From Aquitalea magnusonii (GTDB taxonomy: Bacteria > Pseudomonadota > Gammaproteobacteria > Burkholderiales > Chromobacteriaceae), in assembly GCF_002217795.2 (NCBI RefSeq), contig NZ_AP018823.1, positions 2,108,001 through 2,172,000 on the forward strand: 64,000 nt of DNA, read 5' to 3'. Below, piece after piece: positions 44,525 through 57,317 of the stretch. Below the pieces are notes generated by a model. It ran no database searches, was not told where the DNA came from, and worked only from the letters and a program-made list of their open reading frames with translations. The number at the start of each line of letters is the position of its first letter. Positions within the stretch are counted from its first letter, which is position 1. A program made the translations under genes and the position numbers.

Positions 44525-44959
44525 TCAGGCCTGGCTGTTAGCGCTGGAAATGAAGGAATAGCGGCAGATATCCTCGCGCCGCTGCCAGCCCTGGTTTTCC
44601 CAGAAACTCTGCGCCGCCGTATTGCTGCGGAAGACATCAAGATGGGTCTTGGCAATGCCCTGGCGTGCCAGTTCGGCAATGCAGGCATCCACCAGACGAC
44701 GCGCCAGCCCCTGCCGCCGATAGGCCGGCAGCACCAGTAAATGCTGCAGATAGCCGCGACGGCCATCGTGGCCGGACATCACACAGCCCACGATCTGGCC
44801 GTCGCACTCGGCAACAAAACTCAGGCCGGGGTTGCGCGCCAGATAACGCGCGGTGGCTGCTGCGGAATCCGCATCGCGGATGGAAATACCAGGTGTTTGC
44901 TGCATCAGTTGCAGCACGGTGGGGTAATCATCCAGCGTCATCAAACGTATGACAGGCAT
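44525..44959 (-). CDS. GNAT-family N-acetyltransferase
   Basis: 144 residues. Acetyl-CoA-binding motif A is LQHLLVLPAYRRQGLARRLV (RRQGLA as the pyrophosphate loop), and the C-terminal motif is SFWENQGWQRR. The substrate cannot be predicted. The ATG at 44959 has AAAGGA 6 bases upstream. It is followed after 83 bp by the hypothetical gene in the same direction. Confidence 0.85.
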   Translation of the reverse strand: MPVIRLMTLDDYPTVLQLMQQTPGISIRDADSAAATARYLARNPGLSFVAECDGQIVGCVMSGHDGRRGYLQHLLVLPAYRRQGLARRLVDACIAELARQGIAKTHLDVFRSNTAAQSFWENQGWQRREDICRYSFISSANSQA

Positions 44960-45265
44960 GACAGTCCTTTCCTTGAGGCACACGCATCATGTTATGCCCG
45001 AAGGCTGCAGTCAGAAAAGCCCGCTGCATTTGCCAAGCAATAGGGCCGGTGCAAATGCACCGGCCCTCAGGCTGCTGACAAAGTGAGTTGCTGCGATTGC
45101 ACCGGCCCCGGCAAAACCGGGCCTGTCGATGAAGCGACTGATTGCGCAGCCGCCCCATCCATTCCCTATCCCCCGCCCTTACACTGCCCATTGCAGCAGC
45201 GAGCCTCGCTTTCTGTTCAGAACGCGAGCGGGGTTTGGGGCCAGCCAGCAGCCGGTGACACCGCC
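44960..45265. other. Intergenic stretch between the GNAT gene and the encapsulin operon
   Basis: 306 bp without a supported gene. It holds a long perfect hairpin at 45042-45067 (see separate entry) and the promoter region of the GNAT gene. The rest shows no clear motif. Confidence 0.6.
45042..45067 (-). terminator. Long hairpin downstream of the encapsulin operon
   Basis: A perfect inverted repeat of AGGGCCGGTGC and its complement around AAAT. It lies 200 bp after the desulfurase stop. It lacks a T run, so it may act as an mRNA-stabilising 3' structure rather than a classic terminator. Confidence 0.5.
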
Positions 45266-47086
45266 TTAATGCCGCCGTGCCAGACGCTGCAATACCGCTA
45301 CCAGGGTATCGACTTCCTCGCAGGTGTTATAGAAAGCCAGCGAAGGCCGCACCGTGGCTTCCAGCCCGAAGCGCCGCAGAATCGGTTGGGCGCAGTGGTG
45401 GCCGGAGCGCACTGCAATGCCTTCCTGATTCAGCGCCTTGCCCACTTCCTCGGTGCGATAGCCCGGCAACACAAAGGACAGCACGCTGGCCTTGTTGGCT
45501 GCCGTGCCGACCAGGCGCAAACCCGGCACCGACTGCAGGCCGTGGGTGGCGTATACCAGCAGGTCGTGCTCGTAATGGGCAATGGCTTCCAGCCCGATAC
45601 GCTCGACATAGTCGATGGCTGCGCCCAGGCCCACCGCGTCCGCGATATTGCCGGTACCCGCCTCGAACTTGTTGGGTGCCGGCTGATACAGCGTTTTCTC
45701 GAAGGTGACATCGGCAATCATATTGCCACCCCCTTGCCACGGCGGCATGCTGTCCAGCAATTCCTTCTTGCCGTACACCACGCCAATGCCGGTGGGTGCA
45801 AACACCTTGTGCCCGGAGAACACAAAGAAGTCTGCATCCAGCGCCTGCACGTTCACCCGCATGTGCGACACCGATTGCGCGCCGTCCACCAGCACCCGCG
45901 CCCCGGCGGCATGCGCCAGCGCCACGATTTCCTGCACCGGTGTCACCGTGCCCAGCGCATTGGATACCTGGGTGATGGCCACCAGTCTGGTGCGGCTGTT
46001 CAGCAGCTTGCGGTATTCGTCCAGCAGGATCTGCCCGCTGTCATCCACCGGAATCACCCGGATTTTGGCGCCGCTGGCGGCTGCCAGCATCTGCCAGGGC
46101 ACGATGTTGGCGTGGTGTTCCAACTGCGACACCACGATTTCATCGCCCGCGCCGATATTCTGGCGCCCCCAGGTATTGGCCACCAGATTGATGGCCTCGG
46201 TGGCACCGCGCACGAAAATCACCTGATCCGGGCTGGGAGAGCCGATGAAACGGGCCACCTTGTTACGGGCCGCTTCGTAGGCATCCGTTGCCCGCGCCGC
46301 CAGCTCATGCGCGGCGCGGTGGATGTTGGAGTTTTCGTGCTGGTAGAAATAGGCCAGCCGGTCGATCACCGCTTGCGGCTTGTGCGTGGTGGCGGCGTTA
46401 TCCAGCCAGATCAAGGGCTTGCCATTGACCCGTTCGGCCAGGATGGGGAAGTCACGTCGCACAGCGTTTACATCAAAGCCATGGCCGCGACTGGCCACCT
46501 TGCGGTCGAAATCCGGCGCCTTGCCATGCTGCGGCCACTCCTCGACAAAGTAATAGCCATGGCTATTGCCCTGTGCGGGTGTTGCCACCACCGGCTGGCG
46601 GCTGTCACCGGCCAGCAGGGCGCGCAACTCATCCGCCCCCGGCAGGCCGAAAGACTGCGCCGTAACCCGGTCATCCACCGGCAAACTGCTGGACGATGCC
46701 GGGTAAGCCGAGGATTCGCCGATAAAGTAATACGGCGAGGACGGCACGGCGGCACCGGCAGCAGACGGGGCGGAAGGCTGGGCGGCGGCCAGTTGCGGAA
46801 TGGCCGCACCATAGCCCTCCGGCACGGCATAAGCATGCGGACCACCACGGCCAAAGCCATCCAGCGCCGCCGGTTCCGGCGTGTGCGCGGCGGCAGCGGC
46901 CGGTTGTGGCGACAACTGCGGACCGGCCACATCCAGATTCAGCCCATTGGACGCCGCTGGCGCACTGCCCGGCACCTGACCCGGCAAGGCGCTGAAGAAG
47001 GCATTGGCCAGATTCGCCAACTGGGCGACATCCGGCAGGCCGTCTGGCAGGCCGGAAGGCTTACTTGTAGGTATCTGGGTAGTCAT
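45266..47086 (-). CDS. Encapsulin-cargo cysteine desulfurase (SufS-like, with N-terminal targeting extension)
   Basis: 606 residues. Residues ~206-606 are a complete group II (SufS-like) cysteine desulfurase: PLP lysine Lys427 (FSGHKVF) and catalytic Cys565 (RSGHHCAQP). It releases sulfur from L-cysteine as persulfide, leaving alanine. The first ~205 residues are an Ala/Pro/Ser/Gly-rich, probably disordered extension with short conserved-looking blocks: LPDVAQLANLANAFFSALPG (17-36), PHAYAVPEGYG (83-93), and two YYF(I/V)xE motifs (119-124, 179-183). Such an extension directs the enzyme into family 2A encapsulin shells. The start overlaps the shell gene by 26 bp, so the two are cotranslated. 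It is last in the operon. Confidence 0.92.
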   Translation of the reverse strand: MTTQIPTSKPSGLPDGLPDVAQLANLANAFFSALPGQVPGSAPAASNGLNLDVAGPQLSPQPAAAAAHTPEPAALDGFGRGGPHAYAVPEGYGAAIPQLAAAQPSAPSAAGAAVPSSPYYFIGESSAYPASSSSLPVDDRVTAQSFGLPGADELRALLAGDSRQPVVATPAQGNSHGYYFVEEWPQHGKAPDFDRKVASRGHGFDVNAVRRDFPILAERVNGKPLIWLDNAATTHKPQAVIDRLAYFYQHENSNIHRAAHELAARATDAYEAARNKVARFIGSPSPDQVIFVRGATEAINLVANTWGRQNIGAGDEIVVSQLEHHANIVPWQMLAAASGAKIRVIPVDDSGQILLDEYRKLLNSRTRLVAITQVSNALGTVTPVQEIVALAHAAGARVLVDGAQSVSHMRVNVQALDADFFVFSGHKVFAPTGIGVVYGKKELLDSMPPWQGGGNMIADVTFEKTLYQPAPNKFEAGTGNIADAVGLGAAIDYVERIGLEAIAHYEHDLLVYATHGLQSVPGLRLVGTAANKASVLSFVLPGYRTEEVGKALNQEGIAVRSGHHCAQPILRRFGLEATVRPSLAFYNTCEEVDTLVAVLQRLARRH

Positions 47087-47993
47087 GGTACTTGCCAATC
47101 TCCACGTCTTCGAGCACGGCCAGCGCATCTTCGGTCAGCACGGCCAGCGAGCAATACAGCGAAATCAGGTAGGACGCGATGGCGTTGCGGTTGATGCCCA
47201 TGAAGCGCACCGACAGGCCCGGACTCTGTTCGCCCGCCACACCCGGCTGGTACAGGCCGATCACGCCCTGACGCTTTTCACCCACGCGCAGCAGCAGGAT
47301 CTTGGTCTTGCCGTTTTCGTCGATAGGCAGCTTGTCCGACGGGATGATGGGCACACCGCGCCAGGTGATGAACTGCGAACCGAACAGGCTCACGGTCGGC
47401 GGCGGTACGCCACGGCGGGTGCATTCACGACCGAAGGCGGCAATGGCCAGCGGGTGGGCCAGGAAGAAGCCCGGCTCTTTCCATACCTTGGTCAACAGCT
47501 CGTCCAGATCGTCCGGGGTCGGTGCGCCGGTCAGGGTGGAGATGCGCTGGGTTTCGTCCACATTGGCCAGCAAGCCGTATTCCGGGTTGTTGATCAGCTC
47601 GGATTCCTGACGCTCCTTGATGGTTTCAATGGTCAGGCGCAGCTGTTCCTTGATCTGGTCGTGCGGACTGCTGTACAGGTCGGACACGCGGGTGTGTACG
47701 TCCAGCACGGTGGTGACCGCATTGAGGAACAATTCGCGCGGCTGTTCTTCGTAATCGACAAAGGTTTGCGGCAGTTCGGATTCGTCGCGCTGCGAGCAGG
47801 CCACCTGCACACCAGCGGCGTTTTTCACCCGGTTCAGACGGAAAATGCCCGCTTCTACCGGCGACCATTGCAGCAGATGCACCAGCCAGCGCGGGCTGAT
47901 GGTGGACAACTGCGGTACGGTTTTGGTGGCATTGGCTAGCTGGCGCGCGGCGTTGTCGCCCAGTGCCTGTTTGACGTCCTGATGTTGAGACAT
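47061..47993 (-). CDS. Family 2A encapsulin shell protein (SrpI-like)
   Basis: 310 residues, the size of Synechococcus SrpI. It is an HK97-fold capsid protein that self-assembles into a nanocompartment. Visible are an extended N-arm (about 1-40), the block LFLNAVTTVLDVHTRVSDLY, the segment EPGFFLAHPLAIAAFGREC, and the C-terminal domain GVPIIPSDKLPI to VRFMGINRNAIASYLISLY. There is no cyclic-nucleotide-binding insert, which separates 2A from 2B. The ATG at 47993 has GGAG 5 bases upstream. It is followed by the cargo desulfurase and preceded by serine acetyltransferase and rhodanese genes, the known 2A gene set. The protein was long annotated as a Crp-related or SrpI membrane protein in databases. 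Confidence 0.93.
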   Translation of the reverse strand: MSQHQDVKQALGDNAARQLANATKTVPQLSTISPRWLVHLLQWSPVEAGIFRLNRVKNAAGVQVACSQRDESELPQTFVDYEEQPRELFLNAVTTVLDVHTRVSDLYSSPHDQIKEQLRLTIETIKERQESELINNPEYGLLANVDETQRISTLTGAPTPDDLDELLTKVWKEPGFFLAHPLAIAAFGRECTRRGVPPPTVSLFGSQFITWRGVPIIPSDKLPIDENGKTKILLLRVGEKRQGVIGLYQPGVAGEQSPGLSVRFMGINRNAIASYLISLYCSLAVLTEDALAVLEDVEIGKYHDYPDTYK

Positions 47994-48027
47994 GTCTGCT
48001 CCATAAGGGATGGTGGAAGAAACAAAA

Positions 48028-48100
48028 CTGCAGGCAACACAGCCCCCTTGCCGGCGGCCTGCAGGCAAAGCTCCGCCCTGCCCGCTGCCCATGCAGCGGG
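48028..48100 (-). other. Two intercistronic hairpins before the encapsulin gene
   Basis: CTGCAGGC (48028-48035) pairs with GCCTGCAG (48057-48064), and CCCGCTGC (48081-48088) pairs with GCAGCGGG (48093-48100). They fill the 142-bp gap between epsC and the shell gene; the other joints in this operon are 40 bp or overlapping. They may stabilise the downstream mRNA or adjust shell versus enzyme output. T runs are absent. Confidence 0.5.
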
Positions 48101-48135
48101 ATCAGGTGGTCAATCAGTGATTGGTAGTGGTGCGG

Positions 48136-49080
48136 TTAAGGTGAGGCGGCTTGCAGGCTGGCCTGGCTAATCTGACTGCCTGGCGGCACGCTGCGGGTGA
48201 GCCAGACATTGCCGCCGATGCTGGAGCCACGCCCGATGGTGATGCGCCCCAGCACAGTGGCCCCGGCATAAATCACCACATCGTCTTCCACGATGGGGTG
48301 GCGCGGCTGGCCCTTGAGCAGGCTGCCATCCTCGCCCTGTTCGAAGCGTTTAGCCCCCAGGGTGACGGCCTGATACAGCCGCACCCGCTCACCGATGACG
48401 GCGGTTTCGCCGATCACCACGCCGGTGCCGTGATCGATGAAGAAGCCGGCACCGATCTGCGCGCCGGGGTGAATGTCGATACCGGTTTCACCATGGGCGA
48501 TTTCGGCAATGATGCGCGCCACCAGCGGCAGGCCGGCGCGATACAGCAAGTGCGCCAGACGGTGATGCAGGATGGCGTTGATGCCGGGATAGCACAGCAG
48601 CACTTCATCCACACTGCGCGCTGCCGGATCGCCTTGCCAGGCGGCGGTGATGTCGGCATCCAGCAGGCGGCGCTGATCGGGCAAGGCGGCGGCAAACTGC
48701 TGAACAATGGCCACCGACTGTGCCTCGATATCCTCTGCCGACAAACCGTTCAAGCGCGCGCTATAGCGCAGCTCCAGCACTACTTGCTCGGCCAGCGCAT
48801 CCAGCGCCACCGCCAGGCTGTGGCCGACAAAAAAGTCCTCGCTGCTGTCACGCAGCCCCGGCGGACCCAGCCGCATCGGAAACAGCGCCGCTGCCAGCGT
48901 GGCCACGATGTCACGCAAGGCGGTACGGGACGGAAACTCGCGGGTGGAAAAATCCCGCAAACGGCCCTGGCTTTGCCGCCAGTCGGCACGCGCCGCATGC
49001 AGGGCGCTGACTACGCTGTCCAGATGCCAGTCGTGTACCACCGGCTGGGCAGGACCAAAGGGGCGGACCAGATCATTCAT
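48136..49080 (-). CDS. epsC: Serine O-acetyltransferase, EpsC type
   Basis: 314 residues. Acetylates serine to O-acetylserine, the precursor that is sulfurised to cysteine. The N-terminal half is helical; the C-terminal part is a left-handed beta-helix of hexapeptide repeats (IDIHPGAQIGAGFFIDHGTG and VVIGETAVIGERVRLYQAV) with the catalytic His/Asp region. It is longer than CysE of E. coli and fits the EpsC subgroup. The ATG at 49080 is the only sensible start, with a weak ribosome binding site. It sits between the rhodanese and the encapsulin genes, so it probably feeds cysteine production for the encapsulated desulfurase. Confidence 0.88.
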   Translation of the reverse strand: MNDLVRPFGPAQPVVHDWHLDSVVSALHAARADWRQSQGRLRDFSTREFPSRTALRDIVATLAAALFPMRLGPPGLRDSSEDFFVGHSLAVALDALAEQVVLELRYSARLNGLSAEDIEAQSVAIVQQFAAALPDQRRLLDADITAAWQGDPAARSVDEVLLCYPGINAILHHRLAHLLYRAGLPLVARIIAEIAHGETGIDIHPGAQIGAGFFIDHGTGVVIGETAVIGERVRLYQAVTLGAKRFEQGEDGSLLKGQPRHPIVEDDVVIYAGATVLGRITIGRGSSIGGNVWLTRSVPPGSQISQASLQAASP

Positions 49081-49120
49081 CGCTGCACTCGCTCTATCGT
49101 CAGTCGGGCCGGGCCGGGTT

Positions 49121-49666
49121 TCAGTCTTGCTGCCAAGGCAGGTTCCAGTAGCGCCAGCCACCCACGTCACCACGCTGGTTCTGGCTGTCCAGATCGCCTT
49201 CAAACCCTTCCAGCACGTTGTACACCTGGGTAAAGCCAGCCTTGGCCGCTGCCTCGGCGGCGGCGGCGGAACGCTTGCCGCTGCGGCACAGCAGCACCAC
49301 GATGCTGTCCTTGCCACCGGTCTTGTTTTCCAGCTCGCGCAGGAAGCGCGGATTCTTGATCAGCGCCGTGCCGGTCTGCCAGGCCACATGCAGTGAGCCT
49401 GGCACCTGGCCGACGAATTTGCGCTCCTCGGCGGTACGCACATCCACCAGCGTGGCGACACCGGCTTCCACCAGCGACCAGGCTTCCAGCGGGTAGAGCG
49501 CGCCGGTATAGGCAAGGCCGCTGTCCGCGGCACGCAGGCGGGCGATTTCCAGCAGCTCTTCGCTGGCACTGACTGCGTCGGTGGCGCTGAGGTGATGGCC
49601 GCTAGGTCCGGCCTGGTTGGTATTCGGGGTGGTGCTGGAGGTGGTGTTGGTCTGCAGTTGCGTCAT
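49121..49666 (-). CDS. Rhodanese-domain sulfurtransferase
   Basis: 181 residues. The first ~30 are Thr/Ser/Asn-rich and probably disordered; the rhodanese domain follows (VDVRTAEERKFVGQVPGSLHV) with the active-site Cys127 in LLCRSGKRS. It should carry a persulfide and pass sulfane sulfur between partners. The ATG at 49666 has GGGAG 6 bases upstream; another ATG at 49690 lacks such a site. It is the first gene of the encapsulin operon. Its leader can fold over this start (see hairpin entry). Confidence 0.9.
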   Translation of the reverse strand: MTQLQTNTTSSTTPNTNQAGPSGHHLSATDAVSASEELLEIARLRAADSGLAYTGALYPLEAWSLVEAGVATLVDVRTAEERKFVGQVPGSLHVAWQTGTALIKNPRFLRELENKTGGKDSIVVLLCRSGKRSAAAAEAAAKAGFTQVYNVLEGFEGDLDSQNQRGDVGGWRYWNLPWQQD

Positions 49667-49709
49667 ATTGGTCTCCCTGGCTGATGCCATCTGGCTTGCA
49701 GACCAATAT
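49665..49709 (-). promoter_or_regulatory. Inverted repeat covering the ribosome binding site and start of the rhodanese gene
   Basis: A 10-bp perfect inverted repeat ATATTGGTCT / AGACCAATAT with 25 nt between the arms. In mRNA the 3' arm contains the last two bases of the GGGAG site, the spacer and the first two bases of the AUG. A small nested hairpin (GCC-AGAU-GGC) lies in the loop. It could block translation until opened, or be a protein-binding DNA dyad. Confidence 0.6.
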
Positions 49710-49730
49710 ACGCGGCAGTGCGCCGCCGAC

Positions 49731-49743
49731 TAAGCAAGAAAAA
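49731..49743 (-). promoter_or_regulatory. Shared 13-base motif, encapsulin operon copy
   Basis: TAAGCAAGAAAAA (plus-strand reading) starts 65 bp upstream of the rhodanese start codon. The same 13 bases occur at exactly the same distance before ssuE. It is a probable binding site for a common sulfur regulator (CysB/Cbl/SsuR type), overlapping the promoter region. Confidence 0.6.
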
Positions 49744-49773
49744 CTGCAGTGATTATGAAGAAAATAGATAACC

Positions 49774-49801
49774 ATGCCGTTATTATGGCATTTTCTGGCA
49801 T
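49774..49801. repeat. TGGCAT half-site cluster
   Basis: TGGCAT at 49786-49791 and 49796-49801, one helical turn apart, plus the inverted copy ATGCC at 49774-49778. It lies upstream of the shared motif in the encapsulin operon promoter region; a possible operator. Confidence 0.4.
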
Positions 49802-49881
49802 AACAAAAAGAATCGTCGCTTTCTCAGCAGACAAGTGCTTACCGAACAAGGGAAAGTGCGTGATGGATGCTTTGAAAATAC

Positions 49882-49911
49882 AAAACGGGATGGCGTTTGC
49901 CATCCCGTTTT
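49882..49911 (-). terminator. Terminator after metQ
   Basis: A 13-bp perfect stem (AAAACGGGATGGC and its complement) around GTTT, with A/T-rich ends suitable for both strands. It separates the metNIQ and encapsulin operons. Confidence 0.9.
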
Positions 49912-49938
49912 CAGTCAGCAGTGCGTATCAAGTCCGGA

Positions 49939-50727
49939 TCAGAACGCCGGAATCACTGCGCCCTGGTACTTGGTTTCGATGAACTTCTTGGCTTCCGGGC
50001 TGTTCAGCGCAGCAGCCAGTTTCTTGATGGCGGCGCTGTTCTTGTTGTCCGGACGGGCTACCAGCAGGTTGGCATACGGCGAGGTGGTTTCGGTGAACAG
50101 GCCATCCTTCTTCGGGTTCAGCTTGGCTTCCAGCGCGTAGTTGGCGTTGATCAGCGCAACGTCCACCTGATTCAGCACGCGCGGCAGGGTAGCGGCTTCC
50201 AGTTCCTTGATCTTGATGTTCTTCGGGTTGGACACGATGTCCTTGGTGGTCGGGTAGATGTTCTTGCGATCCTTCAGCTTGATCACACCGCCCTGATCCA
50301 GCAGCAGCAGTGCGCGGCCGGCATTGGTCGGGTCATTCGGGATGGCCACGGTAGCGCCTTGCGGCAGGTCGGCCACTTTCTTGTACTTGCTGGAGTAAGC
50401 GGCAAACGGCTCGATGTGTACCGGCTTGGAAGCCACCACCAGATGGGTGCCACGGTCCTTGTTGAACTTGTCCAGATACGGAATGTGCTGGAAGAAGTTG
50501 GCATCCAGCTGCTTTTCTTCTACCTGGGTGTTAGGCAGCACGTAGTCGTTGAACACCTTTACTTGCAGATCCACACCTTGCTTGGCCAGGGTGGGCTTCA
50601 GGGCTTCGAGGATTTCAGCATGCGGCACCGGCGAGGCAGCCACGGTCAGCTTTACATTTTCGGCGTGGACGGCCAGGGCGGCCACGCTCAGGCTCAGGGC
50701 AGCAAACAGCTTGGAAACGCGTTTCAT
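49939..50727 (-). CDS. metQ: D-methionine-type ABC transporter substrate-binding protein
   Basis: 262 residues. Periplasmic binding protein of the NlpA/MetQ family (VAASPVPHAEILEALKP, LDANFFQHIPYLDKFN). The signal peptide (residues 1-~22) ends in AVHA with no lipobox cysteine, so this one is predicted to be free in the periplasm rather than a lipoprotein, unlike most MetQ. GGAG lies upstream of the ATG at 50727. It is the third gene of metNIQ, 107 bp after metI. Methionine is the usual ligand; other sulfur compounds are possible given the neighbours. Confidence 0.88.
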   Translation of the reverse strand: MKRVSKLFAALSLSVAALAVHAENVKLTVAASPVPHAEILEALKPTLAKQGVDLQVKVFNDYVLPNTQVEEKQLDANFFQHIPYLDKFNKDRGTHLVVASKPVHIEPFAAYSSKYKKVADLPQGATVAIPNDPTNAGRALLLLDQGGVIKLKDRKNIYPTTKDIVSNPKNIKIKELEAATLPRVLNQVDVALINANYALEAKLNPKKDGLFTETTSPYANLLVARPDNKNSAAIKKLAAALNSPEAKKFIETKYQGAVIPAF

Positions 50728-50834
50728 CGTTTTTTTCTCCAGATCAATGGGCAAAGGGGCTCCATGCAGCCGGTCAAGTCCGGCTGCACAGGGATTCACA
50801 ACAAAGGGAATGCAGTAATGTGCTGGCGGCTGAC

Positions 50835-51512
50835 TCAGCCGAAGCGACAGCGGCGCACCAGGGCGTCGCCCGCGGTTTGCAGGGCTTGTACCAGCACCAG
50901 CAGCAGGGCCACGGTGACGATCATCACCTCGGTCTGGAAGCGCTGATAGCCGTAGCGGATGGCCAGATCGCCCAGCCCGCCGCCGCCAATCACCCCGGAC
51001 ATGGCGGTGTAACCCACCAACGCCACGGCGGTGACGGTAGCCGCGCCGATCAGACCGGGCATGGCCTCGGGCAGCAGCACCTTGAACACGATCTGCGGCA
51101 GTTTGGCCCCCATGGACTGGCTGGCTTCAATCACGCCGCGGTCGATTTCGCGCAGCACGTTTTCCACCAGGCGGCCAAAGAAGGGAATGGCCCCCACCAC
51201 CAGCGGCACGATGGCACCGGCCACGCCGATGGAGGTACCCACCAGCAGCAGGGTGAGCGGAATCAGCACAATCAGCAAAATGACAAACGGCAGCGAACGC
51301 AGCACGTTCACCAGGAAAGACAGCACCGCATACAGGCGCGGGCGGGCACGTAGCTGGCCCGGTGCGCTGATGTACAGCAGCACGCCCAGCGGCAGGCCGA
51401 ACACGATGGTAAACAGCAGGGACACACCCAACATGGTCAGGGTATCCAGCGTGGCGGTGCCGATTTCCGGCCAGTCCACCGTCAACAACAGGCTTGGGTC
51501 GAATCCGCTCAT
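50835..51512 (-). CDS. metI: Methionine ABC transporter permease
   Basis: 225 residues with five hydrophobic segments and the permease EAA-type loop (EASQSMGAKLPQIVFKVLLPEAMPG region). It forms the inner-membrane channel of the MetNIQ importer. The start (ATG 51512) overlaps the metN stop as ATGA. Confidence 0.92.
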   Translation of the reverse strand: MSGFDPSLLLTVDWPEIGTATLDTLTMLGVSLLFTIVFGLPLGVLLYISAPGQLRARPRLYAVLSFLVNVLRSLPFVILLIVLIPLTLLLVGTSIGVAGAIVPLVVGAIPFFGRLVENVLREIDRGVIEASQSMGAKLPQIVFKVLLPEAMPGLIGAATVTAVALVGYTAMSGVIGGGGLGDLAIRYGYQRFQTEVMIVTVALLLVLVQALQTAGDALVRRCRFG

Positions 51513-52522
51513 GCCAGCACCTCGCAACGTACACCCTCGCGGGCAAAAATCTCCGGCAGGGCCGGCAGTTCCACATCAGACGCCACCACGCCCACTAGCA
51601 ACTGGCCGCAAGGCGTGTCACGGATTTCGCTCAAGGTGCCACTGAGCAGGTTGACGCGCAGGCCGGTCGCACGGCCCACCTTGTCCAGCACCGGGCTGAG
51701 CGTGGGCTCGCCAACAAAGGTGAGCTTGAGCAGCGGCACGCCAATGCGCGCACGCCAGGCGTCCACCCGTTCGCCCTGGCCGAAACCGGTTTCGGCCAGC
51801 AGGCTGCGGGTGACCGCATGCTGCGGCTGCAGGAACACATCCAGCACACTGCCCTTTTCCACCACCTTGCCGTGATCCATTACCGACACGTGGTCGCACA
51901 GTTGGCGAATCACGCGCATGTCGTGGGTAATCAGCACGATGGTGAGATTGAGCTGGCGGTTGATGTCGGCCAGCAGGGCCAGAATGGAATCGGTGGTTTC
52001 CGGGTCCAGCGCCGAGGTGGCTTCGTCACACAGCAGCAGGTCCGGGTGATTGGCCAGCGCACGGGCAATACCCACGCGCTGCTTTTGCCCGCCGGACAAT
52101 TGCGACGGACGTTTTTCCTTGTGATCGGCCAGGCCCACCAGTTGCAACAGCTCGTCCACGCGGGCGTCCATTTGTGCCGGGGTCAGGGTACCGGCCAGCT
52201 CCAGCGGGAAGCGCACATTGCCGCCCACGGTGCGCGAACGCAGCAGATTGAAATGCTGGAACACCATACCGATGCGCTGGCGGCGCAGTTGCAACTCGGC
52301 TTCCGGCAAGGCGGTGAGTTCCTGCTCGCCCAGTGTCACCGTGCCGCTATCCGGACGTTCCAACAGGTTGAGACAACGAATCAGGGTACTTTTACCGGCC
52401 CCCGAGCGGCCGATGATGCCGTAGATTTCACCGGCGGCCACTTGCAGGCTGACATCGTCCAGCGCAGCGATGCGGCGGCCTTCATGGCTGAAATGTTTGC
52501 TGAGATTGCGTACTTCTATCAT
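51509..52522 (-). CDS. metN: Methionine ABC transporter ATP-binding protein
   Basis: 337 residues. ATPase domain with Walker A GRSGAGKST, signature LSGGQKQR and Walker B LLLCDEATSALD. It ends in a C-terminal NIL/ACT-like domain (about 260-337) that in MetN binds methionine and inhibits transport. It is the first gene of metNIQ, 225 bp from the end of the ssu operon. No SAM riboswitch is recognisable upstream. Confidence 0.94.
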   Translation of the reverse strand: MIEVRNLSKHFSHEGRRIAALDDVSLQVAAGEIYGIIGRSGAGKSTLIRCLNLLERPDSGTVTLGEQELTALPEAELQLRRQRIGMVFQHFNLLRSRTVGGNVRFPLELAGTLTPAQMDARVDELLQLVGLADHKEKRPSQLSGGQKQRVGIARALANHPDLLLCDEATSALDPETTDSILALLADINRQLNLTIVLITHDMRVIRQLCDHVSVMDHGKVVEKGSVLDVFLQPQHAVTRSLLAETGFGQGERVDAWRARIGVPLLKLTFVGEPTLSPVLDKVGRATGLRVNLLSGTLSEIRDTPCGQLLVGVVASDVELPALPEIFAREGVRCEVLA

Positions 52523-52989: not shown

Positions 52990-53784
52990 TTACAAGGCCC
53001 AGTGCAGCTGCGAGAAATGCAGCGCCGCGAGCGGTGTTTCATTGATTAACGGTGCATTGAAGGAAGGCCCTTGCAGCACGCGCTGCAGGATGTGCTGTTC
53101 CAGCGCCACAAAGCGGCTATCTGCCGGGTTGCGGCTGCGCGGCAGCTCCACCGGCAAATCCAGCGCCACCCGGCCCTCTTCCAGCAACACCACGCGGTCG
53201 GCCAGGGTCACGGCTTCGCTGACATCATGGGTCACCAGCACCGTGGTGCAGCCATGCTGCTGCCACAGCCGCTCGATCAGGCCCTGCATTTCCAGCCGGG
53301 TGAGCGCATCCAGCGCGCCCAGCGGTTCGTCCAGCAACAGCAGCGAGGGCTGATGCACCAGCGCCCGCGCCAGGGCCACCCGCTGGCGCTGGCCGCCGGA
53401 CAGCCGGGCCGGCCATTCCCCTGCCCGGTCAAGCAGCCCTACTTCGGCCAAGGCCTGCTCGGCTTCGCCGCGGCGGCTGGCCGGCAAGCCCAGCGCCACA
53501 TTGTCCAGCACGCTTTTCCACGGCAGCAGGCGGGCTTCCTGAAACATCACCCGCACGCTTTGTCCTGCCGGCTGTTGCAACAGGCCGCCATCAGGCTGAT
53601 CCAGCCCGGCCAACAGGCGCAGCAAGGTGCTCTTGCCGCAACCGGAGCGGCCCACTATGGCCAGGAACTGACCTTGCGGAATCAGCAGATTGAGTTGGTC
53701 CAGCACCACGCGATCGCCAAAACGCCGGCTCAGATCCTGCAGATGGATGGGGCTGGCGCTGTTGAGATCATCCAGTTTCATCAT
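52990..53784 (-). CDS. ssuB: Aliphatic sulfonate ABC transporter ATP-binding protein
   Basis: 264 residues. ATPase with Walker [10 protein letters not shown], signature LSGGQRQR and Walker B LLLLDEP. Powers SsuAC-mediated sulfonate import. Two adjacent ATGs exist (53784 and 53781); AGGAG is 3 or 6 bases away, so the second is slightly favoured. It lies 7 bp after ssuC. Confidence 0.93.
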
Positions 53785-53791
53785 GTTCTCC

Positions 53792-54583
53792 TCAGGCGGC
53801 CTTGAAGTAGGACGGATGCCAGCGCAGCCAGCGTTTTTCCAGCGTCCGGGCGGCCACATCCACCACCTTGCCCAGCGCGGCATACAGCAGGATGGACAGC
53901 ACCACGATGTCGGTTTGCAGGAATTCGCGCGCATTGGCGGCCAGGTAGCCAATACCGCTGGTGGCCGACAGGGTTTCCGCCACGATCAGGATGATCCAGG
54001 CAATGCCCAGTGCGTAGCGGATGCCCACCAGGATGGACGGCAAGGCACCGGGCAACACCACCTGGCGGAACAGCGCATTACCACTGAGGCCATAGCTGCG
54101 CGCCATTTCCAGCAACTGCGGGTCCAGCGAGCGGATGCCGTGATAAGTGTTGAGGTAGACCGGAAACAGTACGGCAAAGGCCACCAGAAACACCTTGGCC
54201 GATTCGTCGATGCCAAACCACAGAATCACCAGCGGCAGGATGGCCAGCGGCGGGATATTACGCAGCATCTGCAAGGTGGTATCAAACAGCGCCTCGCCCA
54301 GACGCGACACCCCGGTAAGCAGGCCCAGCGACAGGCCAAGCCCGGCACCGATGACAAAACCGGCAGCCACCCGGCCAAAGCTGACCGCCAGATGACGGAA
54401 CAGGTCGCCACTGATCAGCAGTTGCCAGAAGGCCACTACCACTTCGCTGGGGGCAGGCAGCACGCGGTGATTGAGCCAGCCGGCCACCGAGGCCAGTTGC
54501 CAGAACGCCAGCAGCAGAATGGGCACCAGCCAGGGCAGCAGGCGCTGCCACAGGCCTTGCGCCAATGCATGTGAACGTGACAT
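53792..54583 (-). CDS. ssuC: Aliphatic sulfonate ABC transporter permease
   Basis: 263 residues, the length of E. coli SsuC. Six hydrophobic segments and the permease loop ([25 protein letters not shown]) are present. The start ATG at 54583 has GGAG 7 bases upstream; an ATG two codons earlier is too close to it. It follows ssuD by 11 bp. Confidence 0.93.
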
Positions 54584-54594
54584 GGCCATGCTCC

Positions 54595-55740
54595 TCAGGA
54601 AGCCGCCGCCTGGCGGGTTTCATTGGGCAATAGCTGGTTGGCCATCACCTCGCCTGCCGGTTGCTGGCCGATGCTGGGCTTGAGACGATCCGGCAGATGC
54701 GGGAACAGCAGCTCGGCCACGCGGTAGGCTTCGTCCAGATGCGGATAACCGGAGAACACGAAGGTTTCGATGCCCAGCTCGGCGTATTCCTGCATGCGGC
54801 GCGCCACGGTGGGGCCATCGCCCACCAGCGCCGTGCCTGCGCCGCCGCGCACCAGGCCGATGCCGGCCCACAGATTGGGTGAGATTTCCAGCTTGTCGCG
54901 GCTGCCGCCATGCAGCGCAGCCATGCGGCGCTGGCCTTCGGAATCGGCCCGTGCCAGGGTTTTCTGCGCATTGGCGATGGTGGCGTCATCCAGACGGCTG
55001 ATCAGCCGCTCGGCTGCGGCCCAGGCTTCTGCATTGGTTTCGCGCACGATGATGTGCAGGCGGATGCCAAAGCGCACCGTGCGGCCCAGCTTGGCGGCGC
55101 GCGCCCGCACATCGGCAATCTTCTTGGCCACTTCCGCTGGCGGTTCGCCCCAACTGAGGTAGACATCCACATGTTCGGCCGCCAGATCATGCGCGGCATC
55201 GGAAGAGCCACCGAAATACAGCGGCGGATACGGCTTGCTCACTGGCGGATACAGCAACTGCGCATCGCTCACCTTGATGTGCTTGCCATCCAGATTCACC
55301 TTGTCACCGGCCAGTACGCCCTTCCAGATGTGCAGGAATTCGCTGGCAGCTTCGTAGCGTTCGTCATGACTCAGCCAGCTACCATCACCGGCCAGTTCCA
55401 CCGGGTCGCCCCCGGCCACCACATTCACCAGCAGGCGGCCTTGCGACAGGCGGTCAAAGCTGGAAGCCATGCGTGCCGCCACCGTGGGCGACATGATGCC
55501 GGGGCGCACCGCCACCAGGAATTTCAGCTTGCGCGTGGCCGGAATCAGCGTGGCGGCAGTCACCCACGGGTCTTCGCATGAACGCCCGGTGGGAATCAGC
55601 GCACCATCAAAACCCAGGCTGTCTGCCGCGCGGGCAATCTGGGTGAGGTAGTCCAGGTCCACGGTGCGCGCCCCTTCCGGGCTGCCCAGATAACGTCCGT
55701 CACCATGGGTAGGGAAAAACCAGAAAATCTGCATGTCCAT
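54595..55740 (-). CDS. ssuD: FMNH2-dependent alkanesulfonate monooxygenase
   Basis: 381 residues, the length of E. coli SsuD, with the same N-terminal pattern ([14 protein letters not shown]). A luciferase-fold TIM barrel that oxidises alkanesulfonates to aldehyde and sulfite, using FMNH2 from SsuE and oxygen. The flexible loop and the Arg-rich C-terminal region near [13 protein letters not shown] are typical. It is third in the operon, 37 bp after ssuA. Confidence 0.96.
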
Positions 55741-55777
55741 TATTCCTGTCTTGTTCTTGACTTGATCTTGTCGGGGC

Positions 55778-56713
55778 TCAGGGCTTCCACACCGCGTCTT
55801 GCACCTTGATGGCCTTGGGAATCAGGCCCAGCGCGTGGAAGGTGTCGGCCACCTGTTGTTGTTGCTGAACGGTTTTGGCATTGACATAGCTGACGCTGTA
55901 GTCCGGATGACGCGCCAACATGGCGGCATAGGTTTCCGCTTCCAGCCCGGTGTAGCCGGACAGGGTTTTGGCCACTTGCTGCACATTGCCGCGCAGTTGT
56001 TTGTTGTTGTCGGTCAGCGCTTTGAACACGATGGCAATCACCTTGGGGTTGGCCTGGGCAAAGTCGCGCGCCGCCAGATAGAAGGTGTTGTTGGCGCTCA
56101 GGCCCTTGCCGCTGGACAGCACCCGCACACCACCGGCGCGGCTGGCCGCGGCGTAGTACGGGTCCCAGATACTCCAGGCGTCCACGCTGCCGCGCTCGAA
56201 GGCGGCGCGCGCCTCGGACGGCGTCAGATAAACCGGGGTGATGTCGCTGTACTGCAAGCCGGCTTTTTTCAGTGCCGCCACCGTCAGGTAGTGCGCGCTG
56301 GAGCCCTTGGTAAAGGCCACCCGCTTGCCCTTGAGGTCAGCCAGCTTCTTGATGGTCGAACCGGCCGGCACCAGGATGGCGGAGGATTCCGGCTTGGAAG
56401 GCTCCTGGCCGATATACACGATATTGGCCCCGGCAGCCTGGGCGAACACCGGCGGGGAATCACCGGTCATGCCGATGCTGACACTGCCGGCATTCATGGC
56501 TTCCAGAATCGGCGGCCCGGCCTGGAACTCATACCATTTCACCGTCACGCCCAGCGGGGCTAGCTGTTTTTCCAGCGTGCCTTGTGCTTTGAGCGAAACC
56601 AGATTGATGGCGCTTTTCTGGTAGCCCACGTTCAGGTCCAGCGCCTGGGCCGCCAGCGACCAACCGGCCAGCACGGCCAGGCCCAGTGTTTTTTTCAGAA
56701 TTGATGCAGTCAT
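55778..56713 (-). CDS. ssuA: Aliphatic sulfonate-binding periplasmic protein
   Basis: 311 residues. Signal peptide with cleavage after AAQA (residue ~24), then the NMT1/SsuA-like binding fold ([40 protein letters not shown]). It captures sulfonates for SsuBC. It lies 13 bp after ssuE. Confidence 0.94.
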
Positions 56714-56726
56714 GGTGTATCCGGAT

Positions 56727-57317
56727 TTACAGGCTGATCAGCCGGGAAATGAAATCGTTGGCATAGCGCAGCGCATGCGGGGCCGGGGCGTTCACCCCCA
56801 GCAGGGCGGCAAACTCATGCACGGCGGTTTGCAGGCGCTGTTCCAGCTCCTCGGCCAGTTCGGCCTCGCCGTTGGCATTGGCGCCGATTTGCGACTCCAC
56901 CGCATACACGCCCTGATGGATGGCGCTGGCCTTGAGCGCCGCCAGTACCGGCTTGATGGAGTAATCCACCGCCAGCAAATGGCCGGGGCTGCCGCCGCTT
57001 ACCAGTGGCAATACCGGCTTGCCGGCCAGGCCGCCTTCGGGAATCAGGTCCAGCAGCACCTTGAGTGCGCCGGCATAGGCCGCCTTGTACACCGGGGTGG
57101 CAATGATCAGGCCGCTGGCCGCGCCAACCCGCTGCTGGAAGTCCTGGATTTGCGGGTGAGAAAACTGGCCGTACAACAGTGCATCGGCCGGAAAGTCGTG
57201 AATGCTGATGGTTTGCAGCTCGATATCCAGTGCGGCCAGCGCAACACGGCTGCGATCAATCAGACGCGCAGTGCGCGAGGTTTTACTGGGGCTGCCGAGA
57301 ATGGCGAGAACGGTCAT
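56727..57317 (-). CDS. ssuE: NADPH-dependent FMN reductase
   Basis: 196 residues of flavodoxin-like fold. The phosphate-binding GSPSKTSRTARL is near the N-terminus, and IIATPVYKAAYAGALKVLLDL and LPLVSGGSPGHLLAVD follow. It supplies FMNH2 to SsuD. It is the first gene of the ssu operon; its promoter region carries a large inverted repeat and the 13-base motif shared with the encapsulin operon. Confidence 0.94.
   Translation of the reverse strand: MTVLAILGSPSKTSRTARLIDRSRVALAALDIELQTISIHDFPADALLYGQFSHPQIQDFQQRVGAASGLIIATPVYKAAYAGALKVLLDLIPEGGLAGKPVLPLVSGGSPGHLLAVDYSIKPVLAALKASAIHQGVYAVESQIGANANGEAELAEELEQRLQTAVHEFAALLGVNAPAPHALRYANDFISRLISL

Follow-up and report, generated by a model that had tools for sequence, protein, structure and literature searches.

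A Family 2A encapsulin operon was found in a 64,000-nucleotide stretch of the Aquitalea magnusonii genome (contig NZ_AP018823.1, positions 2,108,001 to 2,172,000 of the forward strand), which is referred to below as the window. The operon belongs to a known class of systems and is typical of it, with the standard layout. The four genes lie on the minus strand and are ordered along the direction of transcription (from 49666 to 45266) as a rhodanese, a serine acetyltransferase (SAT) of the EpsC type, a shell protein and a cysteine desulfurase as the cargo (Table 1). The initial annotation, made from the letters and their open frames, had placed these genes correctly with regard to coordinates, strand and the 26-bp overlap running from the shell stop codon to the desulfurase ATG (47061-47086), and its four gene names were confirmed by the Pfam and NCBIfam scores. 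Gene identities, targeting motifs, catalytic and pore residues, and the conserved order and overlap were all observed here. By analogy with the published relatives, the operon very probably encodes a sulfur compartment built around the chemistry of its desulfurase cargo, and the chances that the SAT serves to feed this compartment are roughly even. Neither the Rfam scan nor the tRNA scan of the window returned a match.

Shell and cargo proteins

The shell protein reached 551 bits against the NCBIfam model of Family 2A shells, NF041162 (encap_f2a, cut-off 380), in agreement with the family proposed by the initial annotation for 47061-47993, and 364 bits against the SrpI-like family PF19307, which was the only Pfam family found in its 310 residues. 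The Family 2B model NF041163 was passed as well (442 bits, cut-off 400), although the best stretch covered model positions 209-449 only, and the cyclic-nucleotide-binding domain that discriminates between 2A and 2B was absent, PF19307 being the only domain found. The shell was therefore assigned to 2A rather than to 2B, because the 2B-specific part is missing and the 2A score is higher. Moreover, sequence searches matched it to the Acinetobacter baumannii 2A shell 8t6r (581 bits, residues 7-310) and to SrpI of Synechococcus elongatus, 6x8m (510 bits), as well as to mycobacterial shells.

Regarding the structure, a first AlphaFold model built from 24 close sequences was poor and was discarded (predicted local distance difference test, pLDDT, of 39.6), and the one used, from 40 sequences, was partial, with a mean pLDDT of 54 and ten-residue means of 62-86 for residues 111-240. 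When this partial model was searched with Foldseek, the seven matches at E ≤ 0.001 were all Family 2 encapsulin shells (8t6r, 8wol, 6x8m, 8won, 9bje, 9bix and 9bhu). The top match, 8t6r, had an E-value of 1.3e-34 and a template modelling score (TM-score) of 0.52 with a large root-mean-square deviation, because the model has unfolded parts. The HK97 fold expected for this protein was thus borne out mainly by the sequence matches to 8t6r and 6x8m, with which the Foldseek result agrees, and the modelling, partial as it was, did not return a protein lacking that fold. The HK97 fold is also common to phage capsids, and a weak Foldseek match to 2fte was indeed seen (E 0.055), but a prophage capsid remnant lying by chance beside sulfur genes is extremely improbable and already contradicted, given that the shell passes an encapsulin equivalog, that the cargo carries a targeting domain (matching the cargo model) and that the gene order is kept across many genera. 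Furthermore, the pore residues Gly194 and Pro196 and the cargo-site residues F262 and Y273 described for SrpI (PMC8049743) correspond, as read by eye from the alignment, to G195, P197, F264 and Y275, all of them invariant in a 24-row shell alignment.

The cargo scored 934 bits against the model NF041166 (f2_encap_cargo1, cut-off 800), with residues 1-602 covered, and 494 bits against PF00266; judged by sequence, neither this NCBIfam match nor that of the shell is a chance resemblance. The SufS homology starts at about residue 204, leaving an N-terminal extension of about 203-205 residues, so the earlier estimate of ~205 was right. The motifs LANLANAFFSALPG, YYFIGE and YYFVEE were found in the predicted N-terminal targeting domain, and counterparts of the published motifs LARLANEFFS and AASPYYFLDG (PMC8049743) were recognized, while the catalytic motif reads RSGHHC. 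As far as it is described in PMC8049743, the S. elongatus system is alike in its shell, pore and cargo-site residues and N-terminal targeting motifs. It differs in being plasmid-borne together with sulfur-related genes, and the main text of that paper is without the terms rhodanese, serine acetyl-, serine O-acetyl- and CysE.

Gene order and overlap among related loci

A total of 80 loci, chosen for having shells most like that of the window, were taken as relatives, representing the best 80 of at least 565 confirmed ones and thus biased to close kin. Gene order was counted in the 71 loci having more than 3 kb before and more than 2 kb after the shell, leaving out nine with shorter flanks. The order rhodanese-SAT-shell-cargo appeared in 58 of the 71, comprising 57 with intact frames, among them L062, whose rhodanese and SAT are ~6 kb from the shell, and one with a split cargo (L074). 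The overlap was judged in 78 loci, after excluding L074 and L073, the latter being without a cargo frame. An in-frame ATG giving a 26-bp overlap was present in 69 of these, with 29 bp in two and no overlap in seven. In all seven overlap-less loci the C-terminus of the shell was still HDYPDTYK or HDYPDTYKQ, and therefore the shell frame seems to set the sequence of the overlap, the first residues of the cargo apparently being largely a by-product. The catalytic motif R[STA]GHHC was found in the cargo frames of 74 out of 79 relatives; of the remaining five, four were cut by the contig end (L070, L072, L076 and L085) and the fifth was L074, a Propionivibrio metagenome-assembled genome in which the cargo frame is split into two overlapping open frames (L074:10824-12309).

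The initial annotation had regarded gene order, overlap and location in a larger sulfur island as making this operon a special model. That view was not sustained, as order and overlap are the rule among relatives and a hairpin parts the island from the operon (see below). Order and overlap were consequently rejected as special features; they call for no special explanation, and the operon is ordinary. In particular, the Janthinobacterium locus L060 and the Dechloromonas locus L077 share all four genes as well as the overlap of 26 bp. No essential difference was found from the Family 2A desulfurase operons in the part of PMC8346489 concerned with them, which share the shell, the desulfurase and the SAT and rhodanese accessories; the ssu/metNIQ neighbourhood was noted for the operon studied here. 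According to the same source, 1281 Family 2A operons with a desulfurase were counted, and SAT and rhodanese are their most enriched accessories (PMC8346489).

With respect to distribution, four loci, all from Aquitalea, had shells 99% identical to that of the window. Counting the genome of the window itself, a 2A shell was present in 18 of 61 genomes of the family and in 8 of 10 of the genus, the two genus genomes without it being 61% and 100% complete, and the Pfam family of the shell was matched in 20 of 397 genomes drawn from the phylum.

Accessory enzymes and the direction of sulfur flow

The rhodanese is a single-domain protein (PF00581, 55.7 bits, residues 61-157) with an N-terminal extension of ~50 residues and the active loop CRSGKRS, and it matched the PDB entry 8w14, named 'Rhodanese', with 186 bits. 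The loop was CRSGKRS in 73 of 76 relatives and CRSGNRS in one, with two unmatched. The SAT passed the EpsC model NF041874 (169 bits, cut-off 150) and did not reach the cut-off of the cysE equivalog TIGR01172 (173 bits vs. 210.65). Searches of the whole genome, a single contig of 4.85 Mb, revealed a second, housekeeping cysE above that cut-off (246 bits, at G000:C1:4558234), which shares 38% identity over 164 columns with the operon SAT, and three further, weaker matches. IscS was also found elsewhere, as were one cysK that exceeds its cut-off and another CysK-like gene that does not. There were 16 Aminotran_5 matches, the four best of which were identified from the pieces tested as the cargo, IscS, a phosphoserine transaminase and a kynureninase-like gene (242 bits, just below the cut-off of 246). 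As IscS, another cysE and cysK occur elsewhere, the SAT and the desulfurase of the operon appear to be reserved for the compartment. A C-terminal Ile was considered as a sign of CysK binding in the SAT and was dropped: it ends the SATs of 4 of 69 relatives, but it does not discriminate, because the housekeeping CysE also ends without Ile (MDQRV, by eye).

On the model of the published relatives, the shell would self-assemble into a T=1 capsid of ~25 nm and the desulfurase would be drawn into it by its N-terminal domain. Cysteine would then enter through the narrow five-fold pores and be converted by the cargo to alanine and sulfane sulfur, the latter being held inside the shell. The dedicated SAT would raise O-acetylserine, with sulfide being caught as cysteine for the cargo by CysK/CysM-type enzymes of the genome, and the rhodanese would most likely carry sulfane sulfur either into the shell or out of it. 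Sulfur storage by such encapsulins has reportedly been described in Science Advances, and 2A desulfurase cargoes are cited as involved in it in the relevant part of PMC12407261. Some observations weigh against this reading. Among the 71 fully flanked loci, seven had a rhodanese and no SAT, and the SAT was on the opposite strand in five Acinetobacter loci (five of the six fetched), which share the order of rhodanese, shell and desulfurase and a similar shell (8t6r), whereas the SAT is inside the operon in Aquitalea; a SAT in the same operon is thus not obligatory. The Azotobacter vinelandii CA locus (L033), also one of the 71, had shell and cargo with no rhodanese or SAT match within its 10-kb flanks. 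Moreover, the AlphaFold shell model is confident in parts only (residues ~111-240), and knock-outs of the pair in S. elongatus were without a growth phenotype in the part of PMC8049743 dealing with them.

The CysK gene in some relatives may bear on where the cysteine comes from. A CysK relative was located between the rhodanese and the SAT in 9 of the 80 loci (e.g. L077:7714-8700), and the protein of L077, the one of the nine that was tested, scored 456 bits against TIGR01139 (cut-off 351). Seven of the nine belonged to a starred eight-row clade around Dechloromonas, whose eighth row, L089, was without CysK, and the remaining two (L066 and L092) were elsewhere in the tree. The initial annotation had the compartment being fed with cysteine. 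This idea gained partial support from these nine loci, although the Aquitalea operon, unlike theirs, has no CysK, that of this genome lying elsewhere. The arrangement rhodanese-CysK-SAT before the shell suggests cysteine-making for the cargo and is its clearest support, and it fits sulfur recovery equally.

In such a recovery, the rhodanese would set the stored sulfane sulfur free, either as persulfide or as sulfide, and the O-acetylserine made by the SAT would trap it as cysteine under sulfur starvation. This alternative, which concerns the direction only and assumes the same compartment, deserves somewhat less than even credence. It is consistent with the conserved catalytic loop of the rhodanese, with the induction of SrpI by sulfur starvation in S. 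elongatus (as given in parts of PMC8049743) and with CysK beside SAT, which suits trapping as well as feeding, but the direction cannot be told from gene content alone. A further alternative was considered unlikely, namely that the shell restrains the breakdown of cysteine, or shields the desulfurase persulfide until its delivery to a partner (for instance the rhodanese), with storage as a secondary role. Selective hand-over to a co-regulated rhodanese has been proposed (in part of PMC8346489), and protection and restriction are discussed in sections of PMC8049743; on the other hand, the latter also describes the encapsulated cargo of S. elongatus as ~sevenfold more active, and such cargoes were later cited for sulfur storage (PMC12407261, in part).

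Neighbouring genes and upstream control region

Table 1. Features of the encapsulin operon and its surroundings in the window.
Feature	Position	Strand	Length	Model or remark
Rhodanese	49121..49666	-	181 aa	PF00581
SAT, EpsC type	48136..49080	-	314 aa	NF041874
Family 2A encapsulin shell (HK97 fold)	47061..47993	-	310 aa	NF041162
SufS-type cysteine desulfurase cargo	45266..47086	-	606 aa	NF041166
Shell/cargo overlap	47061..47086	-	26 bp	HDYPDTYK (shell C-terminus), MTTQIPTS (cargo N-terminus)
Putative upstream control region of the operon	49667..49850	-		Comparison by eye
Intrinsic-terminator-like hairpin	49882..49911	-	13 pairs	T-rich tail; between MetQ-like gene and rhodanese
MetN/MetI/MetQ-type ABC transporter	49939..52522	-		MetI model above cut-off; MetN, MetQ below
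ssu-type genes ssuB, ssuC, ssuD, ssuA, ssuE	52990..57317	-		Alkanesulfonate use

The sulfur island described by the initial annotation does exist, as ssu-type genes, the genes of a MetNIQ-type transporter and those of the operon follow one another leftward from 57317 to 45266. Among the former, ssuD passed TIGR03565 (622 bits, cut-off 518), ssuB remained below the cut-off of PRK11247 (356 vs. 395 bits), and ssuC, ssuA and ssuE were named from a general Pfam domain and their position. The transporter may carry another sulfur compound. The metNIQ/ssu block was present in all three Aquitalea relatives with long flanks, L022 being too short to judge, and some ssu or met gene was above the score thresholds in 7 of the 80 loci, these three included. 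In Serratia (L032) and in Ralstonia (L096), a related transporter was also observed downstream, on the opposite strand.

The hairpin separating the MetQ-like gene from the rhodanese had the longest stem of the seven terminator-like sites, the next one having 7 pairs; the number of sites was itself unremarkable (4.3 in shuffles, with a standard deviation of 2.1). Behind it, stretches of the putative control region such as TTTTGTTATGCCAGAAAATGCCATAA recurred with few changes at three further loci of Aquitalea, and CAGTTTTTCTTG.TTAG upstream of the rhodanese recurred in Vogesella also (by eye). As the hairpin precedes the rhodanese and the upstream blocks recur, the encapsulin operon is probably transcribed as a unit by itself. 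No consensus promoter was detected when 44900-50000 was scanned for sigma-70 sites, with 1.1 expected. Two candidate sites were observed in addition. The inverted repeat ATGCCATAATAACGGCAT (49774-49791), upstream of the rhodanese, is a candidate operator, located in a stretch that is similar in other Aquitalea loci without the repeat itself being fully kept. The second, ATTCTTTTTGTTATG, near the rhodanese, is a candidate sulfur regulator site that occurs four times in the window with up to three mismatches (0.54 expected).

A possible regulatory variant in related loci

A small helix-turn-helix (HTH) gene was found directly before the shell in 45 of the 80 loci, of the type of L060:9659-9883, which encodes a Cro/C1-type protein of 74 residues (Pfam HTH_3, 55 bits). 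The element GGCKATAGCMKGTTGA was looked for in the 200 bp preceding the shell, allowing up to two mismatches and dropping L096, whose shell is at the contig edge. It was detected in 42 of the 45 loci with the HTH gene and in one of the 34 without it, and this single locus, L062, has an HTH relative ~6 kb upstream of its shell. Because GGCKATAGCMKGTTGA was defined on the same loci, its presence there is by construction, and the informative part is the split by the HTH gene together with its absence elsewhere. In this regard, the element was single-copy in all eight genomes examined, which had been chosen for an exact element, and its coordinates place it ~80-120 bp upstream of the shell; the reversed control had no occurrence. 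Moreover, a -10-like hexamer (at least four of six positions) lay 16-18 bp downstream of the final TTGA of the element in 26 of the 43 loci, L062 included, with 0-4 of 43 at other offsets.

The HTH label changed at least five times on the starred branches of a quick tree and 12 times on the best tree. An independent-pairs test gave a median p of 0.06, and since it comprised only five pairs, the joint gain and loss of both is suggested and not proven. The Aquitalea operon, unlike relatives of the L060 and L077 type, has neither the HTH_3 gene nor the -35 element before its shell. At an E-value of 1e-4, nothing related to the L060 HTH protein was found in the window, and the exact GGCKATAGCMKGTTGA was not found in the Aquitalea genome, where sites with one mismatch numbered one, compared to six for the reversed control. 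Aquitalea must therefore control its shell-cargo pair otherwise.

The reading proposed, which we hold with about even confidence, is that many proteobacterial shell-cargo pairs have their own sigma-70 promoter, a private HTH regulator and one operator overlapping the -35 box, with Aquitalea and Vogesella lacking both regulator and operator. In these two genera the compartment would instead be wired to the control region upstream of the rhodanese and SAT. The open-access main texts searched made no mention of an HTH gene before a 2A shell, which is a weak negative. If the reading is true, many 2A compartments would each be under a switch of their own that acts on one target only, and the variant with HTH gene and operator could show when cells build their sulfur compartments. 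Likewise, the relatives bearing CysK have a fuller cysteine-making set before the shell and could show where the cysteine comes from.

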